Source of the DNA: Pseudomonas sp. PA15(2017) | GTDB lineage: Bacteria; Pseudomonadota; Gammaproteobacteria; Pseudomonadales; Pseudomonadaceae | Assembly (NCBI RefSeq): GCF_001945395.1 | Contig: NZ_MSXV01000058.1 | Coordinates: 374,317-438,316 of the forward strand | Direction of reading: 5' to 3' | Length of the DNA stretch: 64,000 nucleotides | Part shown: in pieces, positions 176-3,468 of the stretch | Position numbering within the stretch: position 1 is the stretch's first letter | Layout: the number at the start of each line of letters is the position of its first letter | Position numbers and translations under genes: made by a program | Notes under the pieces: model-generated | Database searches by the model: none | The model's input: the letters and a program-made list of their open reading frames with translations, nothing else | Told to the model about the DNA's origin: nothing

Positions 176-994
176 TCAGCCTTTGCCGGCTTGCTGATAC
201 AGCGGCATGACCTTCGGAATGGCAGCCTGCAGGGAGGCGATGCGGCTCGACGAGGACGGGTGCGTGCTCATGAACTGTGGCGGCTCTCCTTCGCTGGCCT
301 TGGCCATTTTCTCCCACAGGCTGATCGCTGCGTTGGGGTTGTAGCCGGCACGGGCAGCGAGTTCGATGCCGATCAGGTCAGCTTCGTTTTCGTTGCTGCG
401 GCTGTTGGGCAGTGTCATGCCATAGTTCACCGCTGCATCGGCCAGCGCCATCTGGTCCGAACTCACACCCAGCAAGGCAGCAGCACCCTGCTTGGCCAGG
501 TTCACGCCGTAGGCCTTGGACATCGCCTCGCGGCCATGCTCACGCAGGGCGTGAGCGATCTCGTGGCCCATGACTGCGGCGATTTCATCGTCGGTAAGCT
601 CCAGCTTCTCGATGATGCCGGTGTAGAAGATGATCTTGCCGCCAGGGCCGCAGTTGGCATTCAGCTCGGGGCTCCTGATCAGGTTTACCTCCCACTGCCA
701 TTGAGCCGCATCCGGGCGAAACAGCGGAGCCTGCTTGATCAGGCGGTCGGCGACACGCTGCAGGCGCTTGGCCTCGGCGCTGTTCTTGTCCAGCGCGCCC
801 TGGTTCGAGGCTTCCTGCAGCGTCTTCTGATAAGACTGGGCGTACATCTGGTTGACCTCATCGGTCGACAATGCGCTGAACATGTATTGCTTGCGCTCGA
901 CGCCGACCGATCCACCACTGGTGGTGTTGACGGCTTGGCATCCTGCCAGCAGCAGAGCCGCAGTCAGCGTGGTAATGGACAACGACGGTTTCAT
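176..994 (-). CDS. M48 family metalloprotease, lipoprotein
   Basis: A 272-residue protein with a lipoprotein signal peptide (LLLAGC, lipid-attached Cys19), so probably membrane-anchored in the periplasm. The zinc motif HEIAH is at residues 144-148. A downstream NENEAD segment supplies the usual third Glu ligand, followed by the A-x-x-G-Y-N-P region typical of M48 (LoiP/YcaL/BepA-like) proteases. By family, a role in quality control of outer-membrane or periplasmic proteins is likely; the substrate is unknown. It appears to lack the C-terminal TPR domain of BepA. It is read alone on the minus strand. Confidence 0.88.
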   Translation of the reverse strand: MKPSLSITTLTAALLLAGCQAVNTTSGGSVGVERKQYMFSALSTDEVNQMYAQSYQKTLQEASNQGALDKNSAEAKRLQRVADRLIKQAPLFRPDAAQWQWEVNLIRSPELNANCGPGGKIIFYTGIIEKLELTDDEIAAVMGHEIAHALREHGREAMSKAYGVNLAKQGAAALLGVSSDQMALADAAVNYGMTLPNSRSNENEADLIGIELAARAGYNPNAAISLWEKMAKASEGEPPQFMSTHPSSSSRIASLQAAIPKVMPLYQQAGKG

Positions 995-1062: not shown

Positions 1063-1680
1063 TCAGGCAGGCGTCAGACACTCCGGCCCGTCGAGCGTCG
1101 GGTCATTGACCAGATTGCTCAATACTCGTTCGCGCAGCGCTGTCGGCTTGGCGACAAGCAGCGTCTGCAGCTCCTCGAGTGGTGTGTCGGCGGCCAGCCA
1201 GCGTTGCCGCTGCTCGGCATCGAGAATCAATGGGCGGCGTAGCGTCGCGGCTGCCTGGGTGATCATGGCGGTGCTCAGGTAAACATGGCCCTCTACCGGA
1301 TAGGCTTCCCAGACCGCAGCGAAGTACAGCAGCGAATCTTCGCCACTCACCCAGTACGGCCGTTTGCGCGCCGCGCCGCGCCACTCATAGAAGCCGTTGG
1401 CAGGAATGAGGCAACGGCGCAGGCGAAACGCGTCGCGAAACATCGGCTGTTCGGCGAGGGTTTCGGCGCGGGCGTGGGCCGGGGTTTTCGACAGATCCTT
1501 CAGCCAGGCGGGAGTCAGCCCCCAGCGCGCCCGCGTCAGCGGCGGCGGCTCATGCTCGCTGCGCAGCACGAGTACCTGGGAGCCAGGCGCCAGATTCCAG
1601 TGCGGCTGCTGGTCAGCAGGAAAACCTGGCTGCGCCGCGAAGGCAGGCGTCCAGCGAAACAGCGCAAAGCGTCCACTCAT
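1063..1680 (-). CDS. SRAP (YedK/HMCES-like) family protein lacking key active-site residues
   Basis: A 205-residue member of the SOS response-associated peptidase family, whose canonical members (E. coli YedK, human HMCES) crosslink to abasic sites in ssDNA through Cys2. Family landmarks are present: GRF at 3-5, ARAET at 70-74, NGFYEW at 95-100 and RRPLIL at 148-153. Compared from memory with YedK, Cys2 is Ser, Asn75 (of NARxET) is His69, His160 (of HDRRP) is Thr147, and only Glu105 is kept as Glu99. The start is fixed because MSGRF aligns with the family N-terminus MCGRF. It is probably a divergent paralogue unable to form the thiazolidine crosslink; ssDNA binding could remain. Family assignment is firm; loss of chemistry is inferred. 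Confidence 0.85.
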   Translation of the reverse strand: MSGRFALFRWTPAFAAQPGFPADQQPHWNLAPGSQVLVLRSEHEPPPLTRARWGLTPAWLKDLSKTPAHARAETLAEQPMFRDAFRLRRCLIPANGFYEWRGAARKRPYWVSGEDSLLYFAAVWEAYPVEGHVYLSTAMITQAAATLRRPLILDAEQRQRWLAADTPLEELQTLLVAKPTALRERVLSNLVNDPTLDGPECLTPA

Positions 1681-1716: not shown

Positions 1717-1977
1717 TCAACACAGCAGCACGCCCTGAGGGGGATCCGGCTCGTCACCGGGTAGCGGTTGCGCGCCATTGTACTCGGCGATCAACCAGCG
1801 GGCGCGCTCGGCGTCGCCGTCTTCCACCAGCATGCCGAGCAGCCCGCACGCCGGCAGCTCGCCCACCGCGCCGGCCAGATGGGCGCCGACCAGATGCGCC
1901 TGGATGCCCTCGCTGGCGAGCATGGCCTTCAGCAACTCGCCTTCCATCAGGTTCTGGGGCTCGTAGACTCGTTTCAT
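1717..1977 (-). CDS. DUF2007-type small protein
   Basis: An 86-residue protein starting MKRVYEPQNLMEGELLKAML. It has the N-terminal pattern of DUF2007 (putative signal-transducing) proteins: an early Tyr, an E-x-x-L-L-K helix, then an ILVEDGDAERAR-like strand-helix. Its ATG shares one base with the TGA of the upstream CPXCG gene (TGATG), so the two are probably translationally coupled. No enzymatic motif is visible. The open frame extends further upstream, but that part is a shadow of the CPXCG gene. Confidence 0.75.
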   Translation of the reverse strand: MKRVYEPQNLMEGELLKAMLASEGIQAHLVGAHLAGAVGELPACGLLGMLVEDGDAERARWLIAEYNGAQPLPGDEPDPPQGVLLC

Positions 1978-2159
1978 CAATCGTTCTCCCCGCGCACGTC
2001 CAGATGCCAGCTCTGCCCGTCGGTTTCTAGCAGAAAGACGATGGGCCTGCAGCATACCGGGCAGTCCTCGATGTAGTGCTGATCGCCGGCCGACAAGTCC
2101 AGTACCGCCTCGACGGGCTCGCCGCAATAGGGGCACTGATAATCCTGGGTTTCCAACAT
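1977..2159 (-). CDS. CPXCG-motif cysteine-rich small protein
   Basis: A 60-residue protein with two zinc-ribbon-like knuckles: CPYCG (9-13) and CPVCC (33-37), separated by an acidic stretch. It matches the CPXCG-motif-containing cysteine-rich family found next to DUF2007 genes in pseudomonads. Probable zinc or metal binding; function unknown. First gene of a two-gene minus-strand unit divergent from the acyltransferase. Confidence 0.8.
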   Translation of the reverse strand: MLETQDYQCPYCGEPVEAVLDLSAGDQHYIEDCPVCCRPIVFLLETDGQSWHLDVRGEND

Positions 2160-2301: not shown

Positions 2302-3468
2302 ATGATGGGCGAATTCGACAGCATCCGACCCTACGCCGACGCGGAAATTCCAGCGGTTCTGGCGCGCCTGTTGGCCGACGATGCGTTTCTCGACATCCTT
2401 ACCCAATTTCGCTTTCCGCGCATGGCTGGCCCGTTTGGCTGGTTGCTCAAACCTCTTATAGCCCATCGACTGCGGTCACAGTTCCGCCACATCGATTCGG
2501 TTCGCGCATTGCAGGAATCCATCGAGCCGTACATCGACCGCACCGTCGAGCATGCCACCGATGGCGTGACCTATTCGGGCGTGGAAACATTGAAGGCTGG
2601 CAGCCCGTACCTGTTCCTGGCCAACCACCGCGACATCGTCATGGACCCGGCATTCGTCAATTACGCCGTTTACCATGCCGGCCTGCAGACGCCGCGCATC
2701 GCCATTGGCGACAACCTGCTGCAGAAGCCCTTCGTCAGCGACCTGATGCGCCTGAACAAGAGTTTCATCGTGCATCGCTCGATCACCGGCCGCCGCGAAA
2801 AGCTCGCGGCTTACCAGCTGCTTTCGGCTTACATCAGCCATTCGATCCGCCAGGATGGCGAGTCGATCTGGATCGCCCAGGCCGAAGGCCGCGCCAAGGA
2901 CGGTGATGACCGCACCGATTCGGCAATCCTCAAGATGTTTCATATGAGCCGCAAGGACGAGCCGTTCGCCGACGTCATCGCCAGCCTCAAGCTGACTCCG
3001 GTGTCGATCAGCTACGAGTACGATCCCTGCGACCAGGCCAAGGCCCGCGAGCTGTTCACGCGCGCAACCACAGGCAGCTACACCAAGCAACCGGGCGAGG
3101 ATGACAAGAGCATTGGCCTGGGCATCACCGGTTACAAGGGCCGTGTCCACGTGCACTTCGGCGACCCGATCACCAGCGGTTTCGAGGACGCCAAACAACT
3201 GGCCGCCCTGACCGATGCGCAGATCCTTACCGGCTACCGCCTGTTCCCCGTGCACTACCTGGCGTACGCCATGTGGAGCGAGCGCGATCCGCAACTGCAA
3301 GTACCAACGGCCGACACGCTGTTCGACGCCGCCGAGCTGGCTGCTGCGCGAGAGCAATGGCAGCAGCGCCTGGCCCGTTGCCCAAGCGAGCAGCAACCCT
3401 ACCTGATACTTCAGTACGCGACGCCGGTGCGCAACCAATACCGCGTCAAGGCCGGGCTGCCACTCTGA
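2302..3468 (+). CDS. 1-acyl-sn-glycerol-3-phosphate acyltransferase-like protein
   Basis: A 388-residue PlsC-superfamily acyltransferase. The catalytic box reads NHRDIVMDPAF (108-118), a variant of the usual NHx(S)xxD motif in which Asp is one place further on; I recall this HRDI-x-[LM]D form in a subfamily of long acyltransferases. An EGRAKDG motif (about 195-201) corresponds to the acyl-acceptor-binding EGTR motif. There is no transmembrane segment, so it is probably peripheral on the inner membrane and acts on glycerophospholipid precursors. ATG at 2302 or 2305 is possible; GAGA lies just upstream. A strong terminator follows. Confidence 0.75.
   Translation: MMGEFDSIRPYADAEIPAVLARLLADDAFLDILTQFRFPRMAGPFGWLLKPLIAHRLRSQFRHIDSVRALQESIEPYIDRTVEHATDGVTYSGVETLKAGSPYLFLANHRDIVMDPAFVNYAVYHAGLQTPRIAIGDNLLQKPFVSDLMRLNKSFIVHRSITGRREKLAAYQLLSAYISHSIRQDGESIWIAQAEGRAKDGDDRTDSAILKMFHMSRKDEPFADVIASLKLTPVSISYEYDPCDQAKARELFTRATTGSYTKQPGEDDKSIGLGITGYKGRVHVHFGDPITSGFEDAKQLAALTDAQILTGYRLFPVHYLAYAMWSERDPQLQVPTADTLFDAAELAAAREQWQQRLARCPSEQQPYLILQYATPVRNQYRVKAGLPL

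Follow-up and report, generated by a model that had tools for sequence, protein, structure and literature searches.

A core SRAP protein of Pseudomonadaceae without the crosslinking cysteine: a possible natural Schiff-base handler of abasic sites

The SRAP family (PF02586) includes the abasic-site crosslinkers YedK of Escherichia coli and HMCES of humans. YedK acts in two stages: a Schiff base is made by the alpha-amine of residue 2, and the thiol of the same cysteine then closes a thiazolidine (PMC9436759, in the portions of that paper used here). When a SRAP protein has no such thiol, no DNA–protein crosslink (DPC) is made and lyase products are seen; borohydride can nevertheless trap the Schiff bases of the C2A and C2S variants of YedK, the link being to the N-terminal amine (PMC9436759). 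Glu105 is essential, and the C2A/E105Q variant suffers a 10- to 25-fold loss. The C2A/H160Q variant keeps its Schiff-base rate (1.8 vs 1.7) with a lyase rate just 2.5-fold lower, and the effect of N75A is mild (PMC9436759). His160 has been assigned to ring opening, and formation of the reactive aldehyde is described as depending on it; an H160Q protein with a blocked Cys2 gave no strand cleavage (PMC9436759). Met1 was still lost in the active-site mutants tested, whose residues have no role in its removal (PMC9436759).

Published descriptions of SRAP proteins term Cys2 absolutely conserved or invariant (PMC3765255; PMC9436759). In addition, two conserved arginines have been proposed, in another numbering, to contact DNA, and a peptidase role was the one first proposed for the family (PMC3765255, in the portions used here). 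Searches of the open-licence PMC literature listed no paper on SRAP proteins lacking Cys2.

The window analysed here, a stretch of 64,000 nucleotides from Pseudomonas sp. PA15(2017), encodes a divergent SRAP protein of 205 amino acids on the reverse strand (1063–1680). It matches PF02586 with 147.5 bits (cut-off 27.1) over residues 1–193 and profile positions 1–213 of 214. The translated ORF begins MSGRFALFRW (start ATG AGT), so that Ser2 (codon AGT, 1675–1677) stands where YedK has Cys2. Alignment to YedK chain 6kcq_B places His69 (CAC, 1474–1476) at Asn75 and Glu99 (GAG, 1384–1386) at the essential catalytic Glu105. Both conserved arginines with a proposed DNA contact are also present by alignment, as Arg71 (YedK Arg77; 1468–1470) and Arg148 (YedK Arg162). 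The latter is part of TLRRP (1231–1245), where a shortened loop has lost His160 and Asp161: in the sequence alignment the stretch between T141 and R148 has six residues, against twelve between T149 and R162 in YedK. The earlier note had described Cys2, Asn75 and His160 as all replaced and had read HDRRP as TLRRP with Thr147. Ser2, His69 and the TLRRP motif are borne out; His160, in contrast, was lost by deletion of its loop and not by substitution, and the threonine is residue 146, residue 147 being Leu. Its statement that the catalytic Glu is retained as Glu99 holds. Sequence alignments restore none of the canonical residues, and structural alignment agrees on the fold. The protein belongs to the SRAP fold family, but it lacks three of the four residues of the crosslinking class (Cys2, Asn75 and His160), with only Glu105 retained, and classing it with the YedK/HMCES-type crosslinkers would be wrong.

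An AlphaFold model of the window SRAP (mb4748c386d12; 58 diverse relatives as input) reached a pLDDT of 94.1 and superseded an earlier model from 37 close sequences (pLDDT 71). In VIA-align comparisons, the model gave Z scores of 25.0 to 2f20_B, 24.0–24.5 to the DNA-bound SRAP domain of HMCES and 23.0–23.6 to DNA-bound YedK, and the 15 entries listed all scored between 18.9 and 25.0. Window SRAP and YedK/HMCES thus have the same fold (residues 2–205, Z 22.5–24.5, rmsd 2.1–2.7 Å), and have in common the essential Glu, the equivalents of Arg77 and Arg162 and a small residue 2. Unlike YedK and HMCES, the window protein has Ser2, a His in place of Asn75 and a His160 loop shortened by six residues; its gene also differs in being a core chromosomal gene, in lying in a row with DUF2007 and CPXCG genes and in having no good LexA box.

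This gene row is strongly conserved among 80 named loci, the best 80 of 552 relatives. Directly upstream of the SRAP gene is a gene for a DUF2007 protein (1717–1977, reverse strand; PF09413, 43.2 bits), found upstream on the same strand in 80/80 of these loci, and the row begins with a gene for a CPXCG Cys-rich protein (1977–2159, reverse strand; PF14255, 81.1 bits; 79/80). An acyltransferase gene is the divergent neighbour (2302–3468, forward strand; PF01553, 41.3 bits; 80/80). A LoiP-like M48 metallopeptidase gene lies downstream (176–994, reverse strand; PF01435, 136.6 bits; 74/80) as a looser neighbour; distances were listed for 16 named loci, and in 4 of these it is about 3 kb off. In the window, the end of the CPXCG ORF and the start of the DUF2007 ORF share base 1977, and 36 bases separate the end of the DUF2007 ORF from the SRAP gene. 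Because of this shared base and short gap, the CPXCG–DUF2007–SRAP row looks like an operon.

The same genome contains three SRAP proteins (PF02586 search), and the other two are canonical, with MCGRF, NARIET and HDRRP. The earlier note had asked for a second, canonical YedK in the genome, and two were found, each with Cys2, Asn, Glu and His all in place. Their genes (L001, 1501–2193; L002, 1453–2139) each adjoin, by eye, a LexA/UmuD-like ORF, and perfect LexA-type boxes, CTGTATGCATATACAG and CTGTATATGCATACAG, lie close to their starts. The two canonical proteins share with the window SRAP the fold and family, and differ from it in their intact active-site residues, in these boxes and in the LexA/UmuD-like neighbour. 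At the window locus, the row begins with CPXCG, and the 151 bases that precede this gene contain no CTGN10CAG; the only similar element is a weak palindrome, CTGCTCAACACAGCAG, at 1713–1728, 32 bases 5' of the SRAP start. Any CTGN10CAG within 800 nt upstream of the SRAP gene was found in only 5 of the 80 named loci (best 80 of 552 relatives). SOS control of the row therefore seems unlikely from these upstream sequences, although the weak palindrome just 5' of the SRAP gene leaves it some probability.

With the window protein as query, a match was obtained in 248/249 genus genomes (E <= 1e-10), the sole exception (G223) being 73% complete. At family level, a profile search was positive in 141/148 genomes (E <= 1e-20), in 135/139 good ones and in 18 of the 19 genera; the weakest of these matches (e.g., G260, 1.8e-22) may be other SRAP proteins. 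In a sample of 244 genomes of the order, the highest score outside the family was 147 bits. Canonical copies are absent from many congeners. In 49 of 80 genus genomes, drawn by eye from 92 with a single SRAP match among the matches listed, the loop-deleted protein was the only SRAP found. The same is true of 6 of the 16 genus genomes that lack the Cys2 pattern described below; 7 others have another long SRAP match, two (G001 and G194) have besides only a short C-terminal SRAP piece, and G223 has none. For no fewer than 55 of the Pseudomonas species sampled (49/80 and 6/16), it is thus the only SRAP found; a few of their genomes are less than 90% complete. On these counts, the window SRAP is the core chromosomal, syntenic SRAP of Pseudomonadaceae and the canonical copies are accessory. 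Recent transfer by plasmid or phage was considered and rejected: none of 1,658 plasmid records with a match reached 60% identity, and 1 of 51 phage records lay at 60–80%. This record (MT836019.1, an unannotated ‘Bacteriophage sp.’ of human faecal origin) carries, near one end, a SRAP stretch 68% identical over 84%, perhaps Pseudomonas host DNA.

Residue 2 varies within this core gene. A DNA pattern for MCGR[F/Y]xLFRW was found in 233/249 genus genomes, and the remaining 15 genomes with the gene, the window's own included, all have proteins that start MSGR. The best 80 of the 552 relatives (the named loci) comprise 69 with Cys2 and 11 with Ser2. Closest to the window (80–92% identity) are eight loci, from P. 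straminea, P. argentinensis, P. punonensis, P. daroniae, P. flavescens, P. seleniipraecipitans and two strains that lack a species name. All eight have Ser2 and His69, so that the clade with these two residues which the earlier note had suggested looking for exists, from P. straminea to P. seleniipraecipitans. The recurrence of Ser2 in the 15 genus genomes (window's own included) and the eight named relatives, with an omega of about 0.10, led us to reject a pseudogene or sequencing error, and no internal stop was seen among the listed matches to the window SRAP in the genus genomes. Elsewhere in the family, some genera have Cys at residue 2, whereas others have Ser or Thr. Overall, it was C, S, T or A in 249/249 distinct proteins tallied, from which one broken protein with Trp2 had been left out beforehand. 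The latter is encoded by an extra SRAP gene (L108, 1777–2151, genome G138) that starts MWGR and contains an in-frame TAG.

A tree of 115 SRAP proteins, built without the four active-site columns, gives the loop deletion a single origin (70 rows, SH-aLRT 99). The His160 loop is missing from all 70 rows, and position 75 is H or Q in 70/70. Glu99 is likewise kept in 70/70, Arg71 in 41/41 Ser/Thr2 and 29/29 Cys2 rows, and Arg148 in 41/41 Ser/Thr2 rows. Residue 2 behaves differently: it must have switched between Cys and not-Cys 8 times or more, with 3 of these changes imposed by branches of good support, and these counts are minima, with branch order in the clade weakly supported (38/112 inner branches open). 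A careful tree of 74 rows, built without column 139 as well, also gives 8 changes when outgroups are counted (8–9 in bootstrap), 5 of them forced and 7 inside the loop-deleted clade. The serine codons at residue 2 belong to both the AGT/AGC and the TCT/TCC/TCG sets, which are not one base change apart and therefore argue for separate origins of Ser2. Cys2 thus gave way to Ser or Thr more than once and in distinct lineages, that of the window among them, the clade alone accounting for 7 changes or more. The three changes listed in the earlier note do not form one package: on the tree the loop was lost once, and Asn75 is replaced in 70/70 clade rows, yet Cys2 is kept in 233/248 genus genomes with the gene. 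Losing His160 and Asn75 is therefore not in itself losing the Cys2 chemistry, and within most of the genus it is, by alignment, only Ser2 that sets the window's species group apart, the other two changes being common to the 70 clade rows.

When 128 variable columns of the clade were compared with residue 2 in a tree-based test for dependent change, residue 139 stood out (p = 9e-7; next best column 0.0036), and the 7 of 128 columns with p <0.05 are about what chance would give. The coupling persisted on the 74-row tree built without column 139 (p = 6e-7). The window SRAP has Met139 (1264–1266), aligned with YedK Ile147, two residues before Thr149; from this alignment, residue 139 would lie near the active site. 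Val or Ile occupies it in 34/46 Cys2 rows and 0/69 others of the 115-row tree. Similarly, among 202 distinct loop-deleted proteins, Val139 occurs in 141/159 Cys2 and 0/43 Ser/Thr2 forms; the other 18 of the 159 Cys2 forms have Leu or Met, which makes the coupling one-way, with Val139 only beside Cys2. Tests of dependent evolution are prone to over-call when few changes are involved. In the dependent models on the 74-row tree most rates lay at their bounds, so that a loss of Cys2 without regain is at most suggested by them. Residue 69 was considered as a coupled replacement of Cys2 and rejected (tree test p 0.08, sign test p 1).

The Ser2 genes of the window's group have a median omega of 0.098 (45 pairs of 10 genes), against 0.091 for Cys2 pairs of similar distance (1,026 pairs with dN 0.03–0.12, from at most 4,000 random pairs). 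Of the earlier view that the gene is under selection but not for crosslinking, the first half is supported by this purifying selection; the second would be reasonable for the Ser2/Thr2 lineages only.

Three groups of relatives have lost further or other parts of the active site. In genus g5 (L171–L188), residue 2 is Ser or Thr, Asn75 remains in 2/18 rows, Glu105 is replaced by Leu, Val or Ile in 18/18, and Arg77 is lost in 11/18, so that hardly anything of the active site is left although the gene is retained. The g5 gene has the same genomic place as that of the window, with the acyltransferase in 4/4 loci checked, CPXCG in 3 and DUF2007 in 1; its omega of 0.159 (40 pairs; median dS 1.28, range 0.035–1.67) says little. 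Family f36 (L154, L156–L163) is a second group without Cys2, with MAGRLY or MTGRLH starts, Ala/Thr2, Cys75 and Val/Ile/Leu105; window-type neighbours were found in 0/4 loci checked. The equivalent of Arg148 is kept in 18/18 g5 and 9/9 f36 rows. Family f8 (L151–L153, L155, L169, L303) has Cys2 and Asn75 without His160, and residue 105 is Asp in 4 rows and Gln in L169; at the one locus checked (L303, the place of L151), the neighbours are DUF2007 and acyltransferase genes. With these neighbours kept, f8 may be an intermediate, and the window clade, g5, f36 and f8 together look like a graded series of erosion.

The window SRAP has the residue set of a Schiff-base AP lyase, namely a small, thiol-free Ser2 and the catalytic Glu99. 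Its closest functional analogues are the C2A and C2S laboratory mutants of YedK, which also lack a thiol at residue 2, are expected to have a free alpha-amine and keep the Glu; unlike them, the window protein is natural and selected, also lacks His160 and Asn75, and has a co-evolving residue 139. By this analogy, we give slightly less than even odds (about 0.45) to the reading that it is a natural Schiff-base AP lyase or a transient handler or binder of AP sites. On this reading, the stable-crosslink chemistry of the core SRAP was dismantled stepwise; the sequences show a single deletion of the His160 loop, His or Gln for Asn75 in every sampled clade row, and the change from Cys2 to Ser or Thr in separate lineages with a switch at residue 139 (Val versus Met/Leu), with the fold, Glu99, Arg71 and Arg148 kept. 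A small residue at position 2 permits removal of Met1, and since Ser2 is small, Met1 is probably cleaved off the window SRAP. The free alpha-amine of Ser2, aided by Glu99, would then form a Schiff base with the abasic-site aldehyde in ssDNA. With no Cys thiol there would be no stable thiazolidine, and the complex would be transient, ending by hydrolysis or beta-elimination. The protein would probably be produced outside SOS control, together with its two small neighbour proteins. The earlier note had offered a pseudoenzyme or a new Ser2 chemistry; the data on YedK C2A and C2S favour something more specific, an alpha-amine Schiff base with lyase activity for which the serine side chain would not be needed (PMC9436759, in the portions used here).

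Such lyase activity is supported by the match between the window residues (thiol and His160 absent, Glu retained) and C2A/H160Q-type YedK. Against it speaks the lack of cleavage by Cys2-blocked H160Q (PMC9436759), as a protein without His160 may open AP sites poorly. In addition, an AP lyase acting on ssDNA would cause strand breaks, whereas HMCES is described as guarding against them. The strong retention of Cys2 in most genus genomes suggests that crosslinking still matters there, so any lyase activity of the Ser lineages may be a by-product. The coupling of residue 139 would fit any remodelled pocket, a pure binding pocket included, and is thus not specific to a lyase. Further, the 18 g5 rows without Glu imply that the gene can persist without Schiff-base chemistry. 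It is chiefly these relatives, in the same genomic place, that bring close behind the lyase a possible, if doubtful, alternative: a pseudoenzyme that only binds, shielding or sensing abasic sites or ssDNA, or signalling to DUF2007 or CPXCG, with no covalent step. The further erosion in g5 (Ser/Thr2, Asn75 in 2/18, no Glu) and the Ala/Thr2, Cys75 and Val/Ile/Leu105 of f36 point this way, the more so as Arg148 is yet kept throughout both groups. However, it is hard to see why a protein that only binds would need a catalytic Glu, and Glu99 is present with Arg71 and Arg148 in the window clade (70/70 rows for Glu99); the equivalent of Arg71 is moreover lost in 11/18 g5 rows.

The least probable account is that Ser2 still crosslinks, through a slow or reversible oxazolidine or imine and with His69 helping instead of His160, so that the function is unchanged but weaker. 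Ser and Thr do retain a side-chain nucleophile, and His69, at the Asn75 position that touches residue 2 in YedK, occurs in 38/41 Ser/Thr2 against 14/29 Cys2 tree rows. This association is not significant (p 0.08 on the tree, 1 by sign test), however, and YedK without the Cys2 thiol forms no DPC, borohydride being needed in the case of C2S (PMC9436759). A role away from AP sites, either N-terminal-nucleophile or peptidase-like or a regulation tied to DUF2007 and CPXCG, is also quite unlikely. The conserved gene row (79–80 of the 80 named loci, best 80 of 552 relatives) without a good LexA box and the peptidase idea of PMC3765255 would fit it, but the arginines with proposed DNA contact are kept, the Ala2 of the f36 relatives would abolish nucleophile chemistry, and the active-site residues of YedK play no part in removing Met1 (PMC9436759).

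More generally, and still tentatively, SRAP proteins may repeatedly have turned, through loss of Cys2, from suicidal crosslinkers into turnover-capable Schiff-base AP lyases, with residue 139 as a coupled switch; the core SRAP of Pseudomonadaceae would then be the first natural family of this kind, outside SOS. A selected, syntenic and widespread subfamily with repeated loss of a cysteine that is called invariant in print provides natural separation-of-function variants, which could tell which SRAP activity serves the cell: crosslinking, Schiff-base formation or binding alone. As this is the only SRAP found in many sampled Pseudomonas species, annotation of its genes as ordinary crosslinkers may be wrong where residue 2 is Ser or Thr, and the pairing of residues 2 and 139 yields a prediction that can be tested directly in YedK and HMCES.

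The start of the gene has a further peculiarity: codons 2–5 (1666–1677 in the window) are, here and in the relatives, unusually AT3-rich and conserved in otherwise GC3-rich genes. Among the Cys2 genes, the cysteine codon is TGT in 154/157 and the glycine codon GGA in 140/157, and GC3 is 0.11 over codons 2–5 versus 0.78 over codons 31–200, which possibly reflects a constraint on translation start.
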